Shown here one piece after another: positions 7,003-19,789 of a stretch of 54,253 nucleotides of DNA. The notes under the pieces are model-generated. The model made no database searches and was not told the DNA's origin. It was given only the letters and a program-made list of their open reading frames with translations. The DNA lies in contig DUFC01000003.1 of the NCBI GenBank assembly GCA_011191875.1, positions 1-54,253 on the forward strand. Reading direction: 5' to 3'. The stretch comes from Dehalococcoidia bacterium (GTDB taxonomy: Bacteria > Chloroflexota > Dehalococcoidia > Dehalococcoidales > W498). Position 1 is the first letter of the stretch. Each line of letters starts with the position of its first letter. The translations under genes were made by a program, and so were the position numbers.

Positions 7003-7640
7003 TTCTCTATTATATCCTTAACTGGTTTAAATGACTGGCGGTGTATAGGGGATGGTCCCAGTTGATATAGGCAGGTGAAATGCTTCTTTGTGCCGTAGCC
7101 TTTGTGTTGGGCTAATCCATAGCCAGGATAAATTCTATCAAGCTCTATCATTAGCTGGTCACGAGACACTTTAGCCATGATAGAGGCACAGGCAATTGAG
7201 AAGCACAAGCTATCCCCGTTAGTTATCCCTTTCTGAGGTAGTGGCACGTCAGGAAGCAGCATGTAGTCTATGAGAAGGGATTGAGGTGGTGGCGAAAGCT
7301 GGTCTACAGCTAGTTTCATCGCCAGTCGTGTTGCTTCAACTATACCCTGACTATCTATTACTTCATTGGTAGCCATACCGATACCTACTGATACGGCTAT
7401 TTCGTGGATGTTATGAAACAAATGTTCTCTGACGACTGGGCTCAACTGTTTGCTATCTTTCACCTGGATGAGCCAGGGGGCATCTATACGGCAGGGTAGA
7501 ATGACAGCAGCGGCTACCACTGGACCAGCTAAGGCACCACGTCCAGCCTCATCAATGCCAGCGATATGCTGGTATCCTTGTGCCTCAAGTATTTTTTCTT
7601 CAGCAAAGGAGGGTGTCTGTAGATTGTTAATTAACCTCAC
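6999..7640 (-). CDS. rnhB: Ribonuclease HII
   Basis: Removes RNA from RNA-DNA hybrids and excises single ribonucleotides from DNA. The 213-residue sequence has [20 protein letters not shown] (the DEG metal site, about residues 29-31), KDSKQLS, and [14 protein letters not shown], with further conserved [15 protein letters not shown]. It is the first gene of the minus-strand operon running to glyS, with a promoter-like sequence about 115 bases upstream. The pairing rnhB-yraN is common in bacteria. Confidence 0.95.
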
Positions 7641-8260
7641 CCCCTATATTTGCCCCAAAAATCAAAAATATTTAGATACCTTTATCCCCTCTCTCAACCG
7701 AGGTTTACGAAAGGTAAAATGCCTAATGTTTCCTCAGAGACGCTATACGGAGGATAGACATAGTATAATATACCTTTACTTCCGTGTCATCTACTTCAAT
7801 CCTTTATATAAAGGACTTAAAGAAGCTTTTTACTCGGTTATGAAAGATTTCACCATCAACTTTCTCAGGTCATTAGCCTAGTCCTATACCAATTGAGGAT
7901 TTGCCATGTCCGTACTCTCGTAGTGCAAATTCTCCTCTTCCCTAAAAAGCTAGGTTGAAAGAAATACTTTATATAGAAATATCCCGCTTTACCAGAATAG
8001 ATAACAGTTCTTTACCCTGCCTCATGGTAACCATGAGATGGTCACTGTGGTAAGATAGAGAAGACAGATTGTAGGAATTATTGCCGGGAGCTACCCTTAA
8101 TTCTTTGAAAGGCTACAGTGTTATCGGATTTGGACAACCGGATTAACATGCTAGTTCAATGGATGTTGGAGGTAAAACACTTATGGACTCACCAGGCACG
8201 ATGGCTTCCCCAAAACCCCATTGCAAACGATATAATTAGACAGGCAGATGAGGCGCCTTG
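7641..8260. other. Gene-poor gap between rnhB and the RND exporter
   Basis: About 620 bases between divergent genes. The only element I can support is the minus-strand promoter at 7762-7790. An open frame on the plus strand (7450-7881) is mostly antisense to rnhB and has no ribosome site or protein-like composition. Sequence before the exporter has a TATAAT (8231-8236) but no convincing -35 box. Confidence 0.5.
7762..7790 (-). promoter_or_regulatory. Sigma-70-type promoter for the rnhB operon
   Basis: Read on the minus strand: -35 ATGACA (7790-7785), a 17-base spacer, then -10 TATACT (7767-7762). Both boxes are 5 of 6 to consensus and the spacing is ideal. Transcription would start near 7755 and leave a leader of about 115 bases before rnhB. 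Confidence 0.5.
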
Positions 8261-10450
8261 ATGGAAAGAATTGCCAAATTCATTTATACCAGGTCCAGAC
8301 TAATTATTGTTCTGGTAGCCATCTTGAATATTGTCGCCTTGGTTTCATTCTTCCACTTCAAAATTGATACAGACTTCCTGAGTTTTTTCACTTCGGGAAA
8401 TCCCAAGGCAGAAGAATTCGACAGACTGAATGAAAAATATCAAAGTGGAGAAACTGTCTCGGTTCTCATCGAGCAGGATAATTCTCTCTTGGACAAAGAG
8501 AGTTTTCAGAAGGTCTTCAGGCTACAGGAAGAGATAGAAGAACTGGATGGTATCTCTCAGGTGCAGAGCTTTATTCCGTCTGAAATCTACATGCAGGGCC
8601 ATATTATTCAAGTTGACGAGAAGTTTATAGAGCGGCACTCTGATCTCCTTGAAGATTTCATTGAGGAAAAGTATTTTCTCACAGAGCAGTTCCTCTCCTC
8701 CGACAATAGTAAGGGAGTTCTTATTGTTAATCTGGAATTGGATGGTACGGCTGGAGAGGTAGTACAGTCGCTGGAGGAAATAGCTCAGAAGCAAGAAGGC
8801 ATGACGCTTTCCCTGGCCGGTAATGAAATCATTGAGGATACCGTCCGTGATTACTTGTTAAGGATACTATTTATTCTGCCGCCCTGTGCCATTGGCCTGG
8901 TATTGCTAGTTTTCTACTTGATTCTCAGGAGCCGTAGGTTCACCATCATGGCAATAATTCCCGCAGGGTTTGCTGCCTTGTGGACCATCGGCACAATATT
9001 TTGGAGCGGGCAAGAACTGAATCTAGTGACCGTTCTCAGCCCGATATTCGTTATAGTGATGGGTGCCGCTGATGGTCTTCACTATACAAGTCATTTTATG
9101 GATAACATGAGTAGATATTCTGACAGCCGTCAACTTACCGTAGAGACCCTGCGTATGGTTGGTATGCCGATATTTCTGACAACCATAACTACTATGGCGG
9201 GGTTTGCTTCCCTGACCTGGACGGAAGTGCTGCCCATGAGGCAGATGGGAATATTCGTCTCTTTGGGTATTGGCTATGCGGGCGTACTCTCTCTCTTTTT
9301 TCTGCCTGCAGTTATGTCTAAAATGAAGTTACCTCCGAGACCGCCACATACCCAAGAAAGCCGTCTCGCTAAACTTATCCTAGTCGCATCGAAGCACAGG
9401 GCTATGATTATTGTTATCTTTCTGGCTATTGTTGTCGTTTCTGCCTTGAACATACCCAGACTTGAGGTTGTGTCCAATCAACTCATGTTCTTTAAAGAAG
9501 ATTCTCAAATTAGGCAGACCTTTAATAAGGTTGAAAAGCATTTCGGCGGGGCATTACCGCTTACCGCCGAGATAGTCTCCAATAGAGGCACAGACACTTT
9601 GAGGGATTACAAGCTTGCTGAGGACATTTTAGATATTGAGAGGGAACTAGAAAGGTTGCCGGGGATACAGAGTGCTGCCTCACTTTTTGATATGGTAGCC
9701 AGTATCAATGAGATGACTACTGGTAGGGGTGATTATCCGGAAAACCCACAGTTGGTTCAAAGAATATTGATGCAGATAGATGATGACGACTTGGAAACCT
9801 GGGTTTCAGATGACGGCTTACGGATGATGATTAGAACTGAAGACCTTGATTCTATAGATATTGGCAGGCTAGAGGATTTTGTTGCCGAGAATCCTCAGAT
9901 TCGGGTGGTTAGCGGTATGCCAGTACTTTTTGATGAGATGAACAAACTAGTTGTACAAAGTCAGATTCGGAGCCTGGGTTTAGCACTTGCGTTAATTTTT
10001 ATCATGCTTTTGGTAACCATAAGAAAACTTAGAGCGGCTCTTGTTGCCATGTTGCCAATAGTCATTACTATCGCCGCTATACTGGGTATGTTGTCTATGA
10101 CTGAATTCCATCTCAATATAATGACCGCCAACCTGTCGGCTATAGCTATCGGTGTGGGTGTGGATTACTCTATCCATCTTATCTCTGGCATCTATTACTT
10201 CCGAAAGCGGGGATTGGGTAGTATAGAGTCGGTAGATTCAGCTCTGTCAAGTCTTTCCAGACCGATTCTGGCTAATGCCTTTGGACTGGCTATCGGTCTT
10301 TCTATTCTCTTTTTCTCTCCGTTGAGAATCCACATGCAGGCAGCGTCTGTAATGTGGGTAGCAATGGTCGTTTCTTCGATGGGAGCCCTTCTCTTAATTC
10401 CTATTTTCTACTCAAGAAGAACCGAACAGCCGGAGAAGAGGGCTATATGA
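8261..10450 (+). CDS. RND-superfamily exporter, MMPL/HAE3 type
   Basis: A 729-residue membrane protein with a duplicated layout: one N-terminal helix (about 12-34), an extracytoplasmic domain (35-200), a block of helices (about 200-360), a second helix near 385-405, a second extracytoplasmic domain (405-565) and a second block of helices (568-725). Helix motifs VMGAADGLHYTSH and GVGVDYSIHLISG hold the charged residues that pair in RND transport. The family (hydrophobe/amphiphile efflux 3, including hopanoid and lipid transporters) moves lipids or hydrophobic compounds using the proton gradient. A TTG at 8258 directly precedes the ATG; GAGG 7 bases before the ATG favours 8261. The substrate is unknown. 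Confidence 0.88.
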   Translation: MERIAKFIYTRSRLIIVLVAILNIVALVSFFHFKIDTDFLSFFTSGNPKAEEFDRLNEKYQSGETVSVLIEQDNSLLDKESFQKVFRLQEEIEELDGISQVQSFIPSEIYMQGHIIQVDEKFIERHSDLLEDFIEEKYFLTEQFLSSDNSKGVLIVNLELDGTAGEVVQSLEEIAQKQEGMTLSLAGNEIIEDTVRDYLLRILFILPPCAIGLVLLVFYLILRSRRFTIMAIIPAGFAALWTIGTIFWSGQELNLVTVLSPIFVIVMGAADGLHYTSHFMDNMSRYSDSRQLTVETLRMVGMPIFLTTITTMAGFASLTWTEVLPMRQMGIFVSLGIGYAGVLSLFFLPAVMSKMKLPPRPPHTQESRLAKLILVASKHRAMIIVIFLAIVVVSALNIPRLEVVSNQLMFFKEDSQIRQTFNKVEKHFGGALPLTAEIVSNRGTDTLRDYKLAEDILDIERELERLPGIQSAASLFDMVASINEMTTGRGDYPENPQLVQRILMQIDDDDLETWVSDDGLRMMIRTEDLDSIDIGRLEDFVAENPQIRVVSGMPVLFDEMNKLVVQSQIRSLGLALALIFIMLLVTIRKLRAALVAMLPIVITIAAILGMLSMTEFHLNIMTANLSAIAIGVGVDYSIHLISGIYYFRKRGLGSIESVDSALSSLSRPILANAFGLAIGLSILFFSPLRIHMQAASVMWVAMVVSSMGALLLIPIFYSRRTEQPEKRAI

Positions 10451-10733
10451 ATAGTTAAGAATATATTGAGCGAAAAGGCTTAATAATAAGGCGTTTCGTA
10501 TAATAGTGGCATGTAATTGCAGCTCATCAGTTAATAATAAGATGATTTATTACGAAGTGCTATAGCGAATTTATATAACAGTCTTAAGGTGTGCTATAGT
10601 AACTGAAGAATACCAATATAAATACTACTGGTATCTATCTAAGCAGTTAACCATTTTGTAGCAATTTTACCAGGTAGCTAGAATGATATAATAATCAATC
10701 AGTTAGTTAGCCTGTTAGGAATGGCAAACAAAG

Positions 10734-11702
10734 ATGAACATGATAGAAGTTGACGACCTGCTAAGAAAATTTGGTCAAATTACTGCCGTCGACCATATAT
10801 CTTTTAATGTGAATAAAGGTGAGATATTTGGTTTTCTCGGACCAAACGGGGCAGGTAAAACGACCACAATCAATATACTCTGTACTCTGCTTCTACCCAC
10901 CAGTGGTAGGGCATCGGTCAAAGGATATGATGTACTTAAGCAGCGCAGCCAGGTGCGGCGCTCCATCGGACTTGTCTTTCAGGATCCTACTCTTGATGAC
11001 TATCTGACAGCGGAACAAAACTTGCACTTTCACGCCTATGCCTATGGCGTCCCCCAAAACGTGAGAGAGAAGCGCATTGGTGAACTTTTAGGACTGGTTG
11101 AGTTGTGGGATCGTCGTAAGAACAAGGTTCGCGCCTATTCAGGAGGCATGAAACGGCGGTTGGAGCTTGCTCGAGGTCTCTTGCATCATCCCCAAGTCCT
11201 TTTTTTAGATGAACCTACTCTGGGACTTGACCCCCAGTCACGTCGTCATATCTGGGATTACATCTTGACCCTGCGGGAGCAGGAAGAACTAACCATATTT
11301 ATGACCACCCACTATATGGACGAAGCTGAGAACTGCAACCGTATTGCTATCATTGATAATGGGCAGATTGTTGCCCTGGATACACCGGACAAACTCAAGG
11401 ATAGTTTAGGTGGTGATGTAGTAACCTTAAAGGCTGAGGATAGCCAGGCCGCAGCTCTTGAGTTAAAAGAAAGGTACGATTTATCATCCGAGATACAGAA
11501 TGGCATGGTCACTTTTAGCGTTCCTAATGGTGGCACATTTCTTCCCGATTTCATGCGTGGCTTTCACAGTCGTCTGCTTTCCGTTGAGGTGCGTAGACCT
11601 ACCTTGGATGATGTGTTCCTGAAACTGACCGGCCACGCCATTCGTGACCAGGAGGTAGACTCACGGGAACAGATGAGACGAATGAGGAGATGGCGAAGGT
11701 AG
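10734..11702 (+). CDS. ABC exporter ATP-binding protein, DrrA-like
   Basis: The 322-residue nucleotide-binding subunit of an ABC-2 exporter. Walker A is GPNGAGKTT (about residues 36-44), the Q-loop lies in VFQDPTLDDYLT, the signature is YSGGMKRRLELARGL, Walker B is VLFLDEPTLGLDP, and the switch His is in TTHYMDEAE. The C-terminal 90 residues match the extension of DrrA/daunorubicin-resistance-type ATPases (LEVRRPTLDDVFLKLTG-like). The permease starts 3 bases after its stop. Substrate is not predictable; relatives export drugs, lipids or polysaccharides. Confidence 0.93.
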   Translation: MNMIEVDDLLRKFGQITAVDHISFNVNKGEIFGFLGPNGAGKTTTINILCTLLLPTSGRASVKGYDVLKQRSQVRRSIGLVFQDPTLDDYLTAEQNLHFHAYAYGVPQNVREKRIGELLGLVELWDRRKNKVRAYSGGMKRRLELARGLLHHPQVLFLDEPTLGLDPQSRRHIWDYILTLREQEELTIFMTTHYMDEAENCNRIAIIDNGQIVALDTPDKLKDSLGGDVVTLKAEDSQAAALELKERYDLSSEIQNGMVTFSVPNGGTFLPDFMRGFHSRLLSVEVRRPTLDDVFLKLTGHAIRDQEVDSREQMRRMRRWRR

Positions 11703-11705
11703 CCT

Positions 11706-12527
11706 ATGGAAGAGCTGTTTCGTGGAATATGGGTCATCGCCTACCGGGAACTACTACGTTTTATCCAAGAACGCTCTCGGATGATATCTTCCTTTGCCAT
11801 GCCCCTGCTATTTTTAATTGTCTTTGGTGCTGGTTTCAATCGAGTCATTGGAAACCTCACGCCGGGGGTCGATTTTATCAAATTCATATATCCGGGCATC
11901 ATCGCTATGACTGTGCTGATGAGCTCCGTATTTTCAGGCTTATCCGTGGTTTGGGATCGTGAGTTCGGCTTCTTGAAAGAGGTACTGGTGGCTCCTCTGA
12001 GCCGTAGCGGAATCGTACTTGGTAAGGCAATAGGTAGCGCTGTAATATCCCTTGGACAGGGATTTGTTATGCTTGCCCTGGCACCAATACTTGGCGTTAC
12101 ACTCAGTCTCATATTGGTAGTTGAGTTGATACCGCTACTGATTGTTTTATCTCTATCTCTGTCTGGCTTAGGTATCCTGGTGGCTTCACGCATGCGCTCT
12201 CAGCAGGGATTTCAGGTGGTAGTACAACTAATTATCTTCCCTCTGATTTTTCTGTCTGGTGTATTCTTCCCGGTGAACAATGTGCCGACATGGCTTGAGG
12301 TTGTTTCCAAGATCAACCCACTAACCTATGGCGTCGACGCCATCCGTCAACTCTTTCTGGGTGGAGACCTGGCAGCCACTAGTGCTGCTACAGGGAATGG
12401 TAGCTACCTCGTTGGCGTCACGGTCTTCGGACATACCATGAGCATTCTTGAGGACGTAATAGTCGTGGCAGTCCTGGGCGCTGTGCTGATGTTAGCTGCG
12501 GTATGGTCATTTTATAGGCAGGAATAG
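11706..12527 (+). CDS. ABC-2 type permease, DrrB-like
   Basis: A 273-residue permease with about six membrane segments (near 24-45, 57-77, 102-125, 135-160, 172-192 and 243-265). Conserved features are the N-terminal RELLRFIQERSRM amphipathic stretch, DREFGFLKEVLVAPLSR in the cytoplasmic loop, and PLIFLSGVFFPVNNVPTWL before KINPLTYGVDAIR, all typical of the ABC-2/DrrB family. It is the partner of the ATPase 3 bases upstream and completes the exporter. Confidence 0.92.
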   Translation: MEELFRGIWVIAYRELLRFIQERSRMISSFAMPLLFLIVFGAGFNRVIGNLTPGVDFIKFIYPGIIAMTVLMSSVFSGLSVVWDREFGFLKEVLVAPLSRSGIVLGKAIGSAVISLGQGFVMLALAPILGVTLSLILVVELIPLLIVLSLSLSGLGILVASRMRSQQGFQVVVQLIIFPLIFLSGVFFPVNNVPTWLEVVSKINPLTYGVDAIRQLFLGGDLAATSAATGNGSYLVGVTVFGHTMSILEDVIVVAVLGAVLMLAAVWSFYRQE

Positions 12528-12653
12528 CCTATACTTAGGGCTTGCTTCTTTGCAGGCTGTGTAAATATTGAGGTCAATTGGAAACAAATCAGGCTACTTC
12601 TCTCTCGTGGTATTCTCGTAGTGAATCTGGGTAATCCCTTATTTGAAACAAGC

Positions 12654-13025
12654 TCATCGCATGGAGGCAAAGAATCCAGTATAGTAGGGAACCAACCAGA
12701 CTGCCCATACAAAAACGCTGAAATGGTGAAATTTGGTGATAGCCTTCTCATCCTTACGAATCAGAACGACAGTCGCCCAAACAGCGTGAACAAACATCAG
12801 AATTATTGCGAGCACCCCTGTCAAGCCATGAACGTCAAACACGATTCCTCCGGCCATCTCCATCATAATAGCCGTCCCCGTTGTATCAAAAACTAGCCCG
12901 CCCCAGAAAAAGACTAAGTGCCATCCTTTCAACCTTCCAGCAAGCCTTTCGCTCCAAACACCGATAGAGTAAAAAACTAGTGCCAGACTTATTAAGATCG
13001 TCGAAATGACTACTTCATTTGCCAT
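12654..13025 (-). CDS. HsmA-like (TIGR03987 type) small membrane protein
   Basis: A 123-residue protein with four predicted membrane helices (about 6-24, 38-60, 68-90 and 100-118). Histidines in or near helices occur in GWHLVFFWGG, DVHGLTGVLA, MFVHAVWA and KFHHFSVFVW. The arrangement agrees with a family annotated HsmA or TIGR03987, whose function is unclear; the histidines would allow haem or metal binding but that is inference. It is a single gene, convergent with the ABC exporter. Confidence 0.65.
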   Translation of the reverse strand: MANEVVISTILISLALVFYSIGVWSERLAGRLKGWHLVFFWGGLVFDTTGTAIMMEMAGGIVFDVHGLTGVLAIILMFVHAVWATVVLIRKDEKAITKFHHFSVFVWAVWLVPYYTGFFASMR

Positions 13026-13342
13026 AGCATATCCTTATTGTCCTAATTATATACAAATCATCCACCACTAGATAGTACCGTACATCTATTGGAGTGGATT
13101 CTCCAAACAGATATTTAGATAATGTCACAATATGGCTGAATGTTTGGTGAAAGTAGGAGGTTAGAATCCATTTTGGTAGAGGTATACCATATCCGTTAAG
13201 TTACAAAATAGTCTAAGGTTCTATAAAGCACCGCTATCTGGCAAACTTAACTTTGATAAATCGTTACTGCTAAGATAGTAACTTGATGTGGGAGAGGCAT
13301 TAGCTTATAATTTTGCACACAACTACAACGGGAGGGAGTATC
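13026..13342. other. Intergenic region with promoter for the collagen-like gene
   Basis: About 317 bases upstream of the interrupted lipoprotein gene. The last 60 bases hold a good promoter (13283-13311) and the ribosome site GGGAGGG just before the ATG at 13343. Nothing else is recognisable. Confidence 0.5.
13283..13311 (+). promoter_or_regulatory. Sigma-70-type promoter for the collagen-like lipoprotein
   Basis: TTGATG (13283-13288), a 17-base spacer, and a perfect TATAAT (13306-13311). The start point would be near 13318, about 25 bases before the ATG at 13343. This is one of the best promoter matches in the window, notable because the gene it serves carries a premature stop. Confidence 0.6.
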
Positions 13343-13816
13343 ATGATTAGAAGAAGAGTATTTATGGCGCTGGTGGTAGCACTGATTCTCATGACTAGCT
13401 TTACTGGGTTATCCTGTACCGGCCCGCAAGGTATACAAGGCGTAGCGGGTCCACAGGGTGAAACGGGGACAGCGGGACCAACAGGTCCACAGGGTGAGCC
13501 GGGACCGCCAGGTCCAAACATGATTGTAGCCATGGGCACGGTATATTGGACGGAGGATTTATATAAGGCATATAATGTTACCTAAATAACCTGGAATCCC
13601 GATTTTCAACAGTGGGAGATAGAACTCACAGATATTGAGTATTATGTCACCGATTATGTAACAATCGTTACAGCCATGGGAGCCGCATACGCCAGATTTG
13701 CTAATCGAGGCGACTTACTGGCTGTAACACTGTTTAATTCAAATGGAACTAAAATCAAGCAAGGCTTTTCTTTCGTCGTTCTCGATGTACCAACTGAATA
13801 TGCCTTCATCGCCTAG
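13343..13816 (+). pseudogene. Collagen-like lipoprotein interrupted by an in-frame TAA
   Basis: From the ATG at 13343 (ribosome site GGGAGGG) the frame gives a signal peptide (RRRVFMALVVALILMTSF) ending GLSC, a possible lipobox, then eleven Gly-X-Y triplets from GPQ to GPN, then VAMGTVYWTEDLYKAYNVT. A TAA at 13583-13585 ends it at 80 residues. The same frame stays open for 76 more codons to a TAG at 13816 and reads like the natural continuation: ITWNPDFQQWEIELTDIEY, later VTAMGAAYARF and FSFVVLDVPTEYAFIA. The full protein of about 156 residues was probably an exported lipoprotein with a collagen-like stalk and a C-terminal beta-rich domain. A single substitution (for example TCA to TAA) explains the break; sequencing error or stop suppression are alternatives. 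Confidence 0.75.
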
Positions 13817-18243: not shown

Positions 18244-18289
18244 ATTTGCCACTATAATAAAGGGGATTAGACTCCCTAAAGGAGGGTCA

Positions 18290-19789
18290 ATGATAAAGAA
18301 AGTAGTCGCTATTTTTCTGTTGTTCCTCTTGGTACCTGTCGCTTGCTTGCCCGTGGCAAATCAACCTCCCACCGCATATATAGATTCCATCACCCCCACT
18401 CCGTCAGAAGTAGGGGAAGTTGTAACCTTCAAAGGCCACGGCACCGATACCGATGGCAGCGTGGTTGCCTATGCTTGGAAATCGAGCATCGATGGTCAGG
18501 TAGGTACTACTGCTCTTTTTACCACTTCAGCGCTCTCTGTGGGAACTCACATCATATCATTTGAGGTTCAGGACAACAATGACGCTTGGTCTGCTGCAGT
18601 TACGGCTCAAATCATTGTTGAGGAAGAGGTGGACGATGAAGAGATGGAAATGGAGGATGCTATAGATGTTGTGGTGGAAAACATCCTTCCAGAAATCCAT
18701 GAGATTATCACAGGAGATCCATATTGGTGCCTCAAGTTGGACTCACCCCTTCCTGAAGGAACGGTTATCGAGGAGGATTCAGGTTCTACGTTGAGGATTA
18801 CACTGGGGGATGAAATGTTCTTTTTCTACCTTGACCTTGCCCCAGGTCACTACTATGAACACGACGTCAAATACATCCTAGTGGATAAGGATGGCAGCCA
18901 TGAGGAATACGATGCCAAATGGTGGCCGCGAATCGATGGCGTTGTCCCCGAGGGATTAGTTCAGTTCCCTCCCGATGAAGACGACGTGGTTGACGGTAAT
19001 GTCCAGCTAGCTCAGCCTACTGGCGTACATATGTCATTTAAATTCCCCTTCTTAAGGTTGCAATGGTGTGAGGGTTTTATCGTGGTGCAGGGGCTGATGA
19101 CTAGTGAGGCACTCTATAGTGACGCTGTGGATACCTACTTAAATGGGATAAACTTTTTTAATGGGTACAAGAATGAGTGTTCTGTGGTCGAGGGCCTGGT
19201 CCAGAGCCAAGCTGCAGATGTACTCGATGAAATCGATGATATGTTGGAGGCCGGTCTGAACCCGATCACCATCTACATCATCGCCCACGGAGGCACTGAT
19301 TCGGTAAAGCTTGGTGGCCAGTGGTTCACAGCAAACCAGTTCCACAACAAGATGGCGGCGCACCCTGATACTATTTTTAACTTCATCCTCGGGTCATGCC
19401 ACAGCGGAAGCTTTATTAACAACCTAAACACCCTCGATAATGTATGCGTAGTGGTGACGGCTTGTGATCCAGACCAAGGGGCTACTCCAGACTGGGATAC
19501 AGCAGGAGGCTTGACTGATTTCAATTCAGCCGATTCAGGCAGTGAATGGACAAGCTCCCTCCTGGAGGCAATGTCGGAAATAGTTGGTGATTCGACTAAA
19601 TTTAATGCTATAAGGGAAATAGCCTGGTCATATGGTGTCCCGGAAACCTGTGTGCTGATCTGCCAAGGGCAATGGGGAGCATTAGGGGCCAATCCCGAAT
19701 TCGGCCTGAATCAAGACCTGGACCTTTCCCACCGCTGGGGGGGACATGACCCTTGTGGCTATTGCTCCTATTATCTCACTATCGAGTGA
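18290..19789 (+). CDS. Exported PKD-domain protein with caspase-like (clan CD) peptidase domain
   Basis: A 499-residue exported protein. Residues 1-19 are a signal peptide ending VPVAC, a weak lipobox. Residues 25-110 form a PKD/Ig-like domain (PPTAYIDSITPTPSEVGEVV, HGTDTDGSVVAYAW, HIISFEVQDNND). A strongly acidic linker follows (EEEVDDEEMEMED, 111-123), then a region with no recognised domain. Residues 315-460 resemble the caspase/metacaspase fold: ITIYIIAHGG supplies the His (H333) and FNFILGSCHSGSF the Cys (C370), followed by VVVTACDPDQGA. These match the HG and xCxSG dyad context of clan CD peptidases. A cysteine pair lies near the C-terminus (CGYC). Substrate is unknown; a role in surface-protein cleavage is inference. 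It is monocistronic with its own promoter. Confidence 0.75.
   Translation: MIKKVVAIFLLFLLVPVACLPVANQPPTAYIDSITPTPSEVGEVVTFKGHGTDTDGSVVAYAWKSSIDGQVGTTALFTTSALSVGTHIISFEVQDNNDAWSAAVTAQIIVEEEVDDEEMEMEDAIDVVVENILPEIHEIITGDPYWCLKLDSPLPEGTVIEEDSGSTLRITLGDEMFFFYLDLAPGHYYEHDVKYILVDKDGSHEEYDAKWWPRIDGVVPEGLVQFPPDEDDVVDGNVQLAQPTGVHMSFKFPFLRLQWCEGFIVVQGLMTSEALYSDAVDTYLNGINFFNGYKNECSVVEGLVQSQAADVLDEIDDMLEAGLNPITIYIIAHGGTDSVKLGGQWFTANQFHNKMAAHPDTIFNFILGSCHSGSFINNLNTLDNVCVVVTACDPDQGATPDWDTAGGLTDFNSADSGSEWTSSLLEAMSEIVGDSTKFNAIREIAWSYGVPETCVLICQGQWGALGANPEFGLNQDLDLSHRWGGHDPCGYCSYYLTIE

Follow-up and report, generated by a model that had tools for sequence, protein, structure and literature searches.

The window, the whole 54,253-nucleotide stretch of Dehalococcoidia DNA analysed here (contig DUFC01000003.1), carries a gene at 18290..19789 (+) that opens with ATG and encodes an exported protein of 499 amino acids, composed of a PKD-like domain, a second domain that we call the N-domain, and a caspase-like domain. 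A strong Shine-Dalgarno sequence, AGGAGG (18280..18285, +), lies four bases ahead of the start codon. The signal peptide is clear: residues 1-18 with Cys19 (18290..18346, +) end in VPVA-C19, and the protein is probably lipidated at Cys19, judging from the sequence. The VPVAC segment, with proline at -3, does not match the PS51257 lipobox pattern, which four relatives (in L048, L049, L055 and L056) do match. The gene differs mildly in composition from its surroundings (GC 0.489 vs 0.451 for the window; GC3 0.518 vs 0.40-0.51 in neighbours); this offset is too small to indicate horizontal transfer by itself, although the gene is patchily distributed. Elsewhere in the window, a short exported ORF (13313-13585, +) contains a collagen-like GPQGxxGxxGPxG run, and collagen-like exported ORFs of similar type occur near a caspase-like gene at another locus (L053).

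The PKD-like domain (residues 25-110; 18362..18619, +) matches PF00801 over residues 36-106 (E 3.4e-4), at 21.0 bits against a gathering cut-off of 23.5. A PKD-like part is also present in the orthologue, which comes from a Dehalococcoidia MAG (JAGMCC010000114.1; loci L004, L038 and L056) and is 63% identical from the N-domain through near the C-terminus. Two other relatives (L005 and L007) have Pro/Thr-rich linkers in its place, and in a paralogue from the same genome the equivalent position matches PF18911 at 71.7 bits. This paralogue (contig 8 of G000, L047:2044-5028, -) is a lipoprotein-like ORF of 994 amino acids that combines PKD, N-domain, a GEVED-like segment, a caspase-like domain and a DUF11-like tail. 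Downstream of the PKD-like domain lies an acidic hinge (residues 111-123; 18620..18658, +) in which 10 of 13 residues are Asp or Glu. The preliminary description had proposed that this hinge could be a cleavage or calcium-binding segment. The hinge exists, but the orthologue lacks it; for want of conservation a calcium site was rejected, and a functional role of either kind is not supported.

The caspase-like catalytic domain

The catalytic domain occupies approximately residues 255-445 (19052..19624, +), as delimited by profiles, alignment and predicted fold. Its catalytic residues are His333 (codon 19286..19288, +), followed by Gly334, and Cys370 (codon 19397..19399, +), each assigned from the orthologue, the alignment and the profile; the numbering given earlier for H333 in YIIAHGG and C370 in ILGSCHSGSF is correct. 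Of all segments in the six frames of the window, this one alone contains a loose HG...C-x-[SA]-G pattern; since 39 of 20,000 shuffled versions of the protein contain it too, the motif by itself is only suggestive and the case rests on homology. Both residues are kept in the orthologue and are invariant across 11 diverse caspase-like relatives (alignment A4), in which just four columns are invariant, namely the His with the Gly that follows it, the Cys and one further Gly. This conservation rules out a dyad motif arising by chance alone. The initial assignment, an exported protein that combines a PKD domain with a caspase-like His/Cys dyad, is backed by sequence profiles, conservation and predicted fold.

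Profile searches place the protein close to two peptidase families. The best Pfam match is to C13 (PF01650; residues 326-395, E 2e-4), which scores 21.3 bits for the whole protein and 22.6 for the catalytic part against a cut-off of 22.8. Relatives at L048 (30.8 bits) and L050 (34.3 bits) exceed this cut-off; among them, a relative of 24% identity that aligns over both the N-domain and the catalytic domain passes at 30.8 vs 22.8 bits. The metacaspase family C14B (PF00656) does not match the window protein at E 1 and matches 6 of the 11 members of A4. In the PDB, a three-member profile (window protein, orthologue and L007) finds legumains (E 6e-6) with the His and Cys aligned, and an 11-member profile finds metacaspase-4 (E 4e-12); because the latter includes clear C14 members, it supports the family more than the window protein itself.

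AlphaFold was run template-free on residues 250-478 with a two-sequence alignment, giving pTM 0.62 and mean pLDDT 54, with most core blocks at 53-88 (the best above 80) and values below 40 past about residue 440. The model runs in the order strand 262-267, helix 273-292, strand 299-303, helix 305-320, strand 326-331, H333 and a hairpin, followed by helix 348-356, strand 363-367, C370, helix 373-379, strand 385-389 and helix 416-432. Clan CD is defined by a His at the end of strand 3 followed by Gly, and a Cys at the end of strand 4 (PMC4357240); in the model, H333-G334 follow strand 3 (326-331) and C370 follows strand 4 (363-367). The best Foldseek rows are caspases (E ~1e-3), then CHAT and legumain, none of them below E 1e-3. 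VIA-align gives Z 10.3 to metacaspase-4 (rmsd 3.9 A, 166 residues), Z 10.3 to legumain (rmsd 3.5 A, 158 residues) and Z 10.2 to GPI transamidase. Since unrelated Rossmann-like folds (receiver domains) reach Z 9.4, the caspase fold is supported, short of proven, and we assign a predicted caspase-like alpha/beta/alpha fold with moderate confidence. A longer model (residues 117-499, two sequences) had pLDDT 36, was ordered only around the dyad, and was left out of the fold search. Structure prediction and fold comparison returned a caspase/haemoglobinase core, and a non-caspase outcome was not seen. Motif and predicted fold together place the window protein in clan CD.

The residue two before the catalytic cysteine (C-2) sets the protein apart. 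In known clan CD enzymes this residue lines the S1 pocket, as do Gln184 of caspase-7 (Cys186), Asp211 of TbMCA2 and Val138 of the C80 processing domain (Cys140) (PMC4357240). Most relatives carry Asp or Glu here, and most relatives and known enzymes together have Asp, Glu or Gln (alignment; PMC4357240). The window protein has Gly368 (19391..19393, +) and its orthologue Asn; neither the Glu of legumain (EACESG) nor the metacaspase Asp (Asp211 in TbMCA2) is found. With Gly at this position, the protein can be given neither a P1 specificity nor a formal place in C13 or C14, and the Gly, together with the Asn of the orthologue, leads us to predict that the enzyme would prefer neither Arg/Lys nor Asp at P1. 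Because the protein lies under the curated cut-off and lacks the expected S1 residues, we do not file it under C13 or C14B.

The companion N-domain and its distribution

Residues 121-218 (18650..18943, +), which contain FFFYLDLAPGHYYEHDVKYILVD...WWPRI, form a previously undescribed domain that is conserved among relatives. Its consensus there is WFxFIDDAPxAxxAHxTRYVFxD...WxPxI; positions 63, 66, 72, 80 and 94 of the aligned segment, occupied by D, P, H, D and P, do not vary. The domain has no match in Pfam-A (E 1) or the PDB; PDB matches to colicin E5 and AFV3-109 had E ~1 and were taken as chance, and identity with PepSY (PF03413) found no support in sequence, with no match in the bacterium's own genome (E 1e-4) or in Pfam-A (E 1), though the two may still be related in structure. 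A linker separates the N-domain from the start of the catalytic fold at residue 255, and in the model residues 255-315 make up the first two strands of that fold, its first helix and part of its second. The preliminary description had treated residues 130-315 as matching nothing recognisable, which holds for Pfam but not as one block, since two regions are joined there.

Starting from the window protein, we surveyed the N-domain through relatives, order, class and phylum, in 1,981 genome look-ups covering about 850 distinct Chloroflexota genomes. It was found in 17 ORFs, 16 of which also contain a caspase-like domain, one of these degenerate. Searches with the N-domain only, which are blind to the catalytic domain, returned caspase-linked proteins only; one of them covered 400 genomes of the phylum. 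An almost exclusive association of this sort with caspase-like domains would be expected of a dedicated regulator. The seventeenth ORF is a stand-alone copy of 122 amino acids (L050, 7049-7417) directly upstream of a gene for an N-domain plus C13-like protein. In the degenerate member (L032, from genome G529, outside the class) the dyad is lost, with SADGG and DVSQSAG in its place, so the N-domain need not be paired with an active enzyme. This ORF encodes 1064 amino acids, a multi-helix membrane protein with a zinc-ribbon, the N-domain and the caspase-like domain. The N-domain and the catalytic domain lie from ~40 to >250 residues apart, some relatives having a GEVED-like insert of ~250 residues between the two, and this variability is a poorer fit to a tight inhibitory prodomain.

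The subfamily of the window protein is rare, occurring in 2 of 393 genomes of the class and not in the sole other genome of the same genus. The orthologue was the sole relative in the search of genome contigs, and plasmids yielded no relatives, nor did viral contigs when scanned with five proteins and one DNA pattern as queries. The genome to which the window belongs encodes, besides the 994-residue paralogue, a third caspase-like protein, of C14 type, on contig 11. Four Dehalococcoidia loci (L018, L020, L025 and L026) encode exported caspase-like proteins with C-terminal repeats and a terminal membrane helix, and this type is a separate surface-caspase architecture. No conserved operon partner lies beside the homologues, and the neighbours differ in every genome compared; they include moaA/moaC, CTP synthase, transaldolase, a fumarase-like gene and methyltransferases (unscanned ones named from sequence). 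Without conserved neighbours, the gene appears to act singly. In G144, the N-domain plus C13-like gene of L050 (7500-9764) lacks a signal and is followed by MoxR-type AAA and VWA genes, again named from sequence; 7049-7417 and 7500-12896 may together form a conflict or regulated-protease cassette. With the PKD part exchangeable, the spacing variable and the neighbours different, what stays constant is the N-domain together with the catalytic domain, mostly with an export signal.

Proposed function and its alternatives

We consider it somewhat probable that the gene encodes a self-contained, envelope-anchored cysteine peptidase of clan CD, in which the N-domain serves as a folding or inhibitory pro- or regulatory domain. 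The protein would be exported by Sec and, if lipidated on Cys19 as is probable, the PKD-like spacer would keep the enzyme off the membrane. The N-domain would work with the catalytic domain in cis, in a zymogen-like manner, such that the enzyme matures outside the cytoplasm, where H333 and C370 may cut cell-surface proteins, in the maturation of surface proteins or in the use of external protein. For the N-domain itself, folding or inhibition of an envelope protease is the most likely role that we infer from its distribution. A broader proposal is that the N-domain founds a new pro- or regulatory domain family dedicated to caspase-like enzymes in Chloroflexota, acting in cis where fused, mostly in exported proteins, and in trans through the stand-alone copy in G144, and controlling, in the window protein, an enzyme whose S1 position is neutral, unlike that of caspases, metacaspases and legumain; we put this forward only tentatively.

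Other functions can be envisaged for the same architecture. The closest folds (Z 9.1-10.2) and profile matches include GPI transamidase and the peptide asparaginyl ligases, and the protein is probably surface-anchored; it might accordingly be a legumain-like enzyme that works as a transpeptidase or ligase and attaches proteins to acceptors on the surface, as GPI transamidase and plant asparaginyl ligases do. Similarity across a whole superfamily carries no ligase-specific signal, however; no partner subunit was found beside the homologues and the legumain Glu at C-2 is absent, which leaves such an activity improbable. We also think it unlikely that the protein is catalytically dead and mediates adhesion or binds proteins through a caspase scaffold together with the PKD domain. 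Repeats that have the caspase fold but lack the catalytic residues exist (PMC3482391), the distant member L032 has lost both the His and the Cys, and the window protein has lost the S1 residue at C-2, but the His, its adjacent Gly and the Cys are kept in the window protein, the orthologue and the other A4 relatives, where selection would not maintain them in a dead scaffold.

Fratricide has been suggested as a possible role of extracellular bacterial caspases (PMC3501461), and the relative in G144 adjoins MoxR-type AAA and VWA genes, a pairing discussed for conflict systems (PMC7159879). An exported metacaspase-like enzyme that kills its own cell or its neighbours is nonetheless a doubtful reading of this gene, around which the window holds no immunity-like partner, sensor ATPase or mobile-element context; the metacaspase-type Asp at C-2 is absent, and the neighbourhoods consist of housekeeping genes. 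There is similarly little probability that the domain acts solely in auto-processing, freeing part of a surface protein by a self-cut near the N-domain or linker. Family C80 of clan CD, whose members process themselves, likewise has a neutral C-2 residue (PMC4357240), and the protein is a single chain without a partner gene, yet the catalytic domain is C-terminal, with nothing after it for release, and no conserved cut site was seen in the linker.

Comparison with known systems

If the N-domain is an inhibitor or chaperone, as the favoured reading of a regulated envelope peptidase would have it, it would represent a new way of controlling enzymes of clan CD; the unusual S1 position, for its part, points to an altered preference in cleavage. 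More generally, these proteins make up a family of caspase-like enzymes in uncultured bacteria that mostly serve the cell exterior, with an unnamed dedicated partner domain. The preliminary description regarded an exported caspase-like protein as unusual in an anaerobe, a view not borne out by published reports or by the host's relatives, which carry several exported caspase-like proteins. Many prokaryotic caspase homologues are reported with N-terminal helices or extracellular domains, exported ones being a minority class (PMC3501461). In anaerobic microbes of sediments, exported clan CD peptidases are common; archaea from such habitats have genes for peptidases of families C11, C25 and C13, of which some are exported and some bear a PKD domain, and they express exported C25 peptidases, one of them annotated as a PKD protein (PMC6461988). 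These enzymes are of the same general kind, so that export, a PKD domain and an anaerobic host are all ordinary; in the relevant passages of these two papers the conserved N-domain is not named, and the window subfamily is rare. The protease itself is thus of an ordinary kind, and the novelty lies in the companion domain and in the neutral residue at S1.

Legumain (C13, PF01650) resembles the window protein as its best Pfam match and the best PDB profile match for the close family, with the dyad and Gly aligned and Z ~10. It differs in its Glu at C-2 (EACESGS), where the window protein, which scores 1.5 bits under the Pfam cut-off, has Gly, and in its C-terminal prodomain, of which there is no sign here; the window protein instead has an N-terminal PKD-like domain and the new N-domain. 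Metacaspases and orthocaspases (C14B, PF00656) have in common with it the H-G ... S-C-H-S-G context and are the joint top structural match; the broad family profile finds metacaspase-4, yet the window protein itself does not match PF00656, lacks the S1 Asp, is exported and has its own N-domain. In gingipain R (C25), an exported clan CD member, an inhibitory N-terminal prodomain blocks the active site (PMC4357240). This prodomain is our working analogy for the N-domain, which has no sequence match in Pfam or the PDB and may play a comparable prodomain role.
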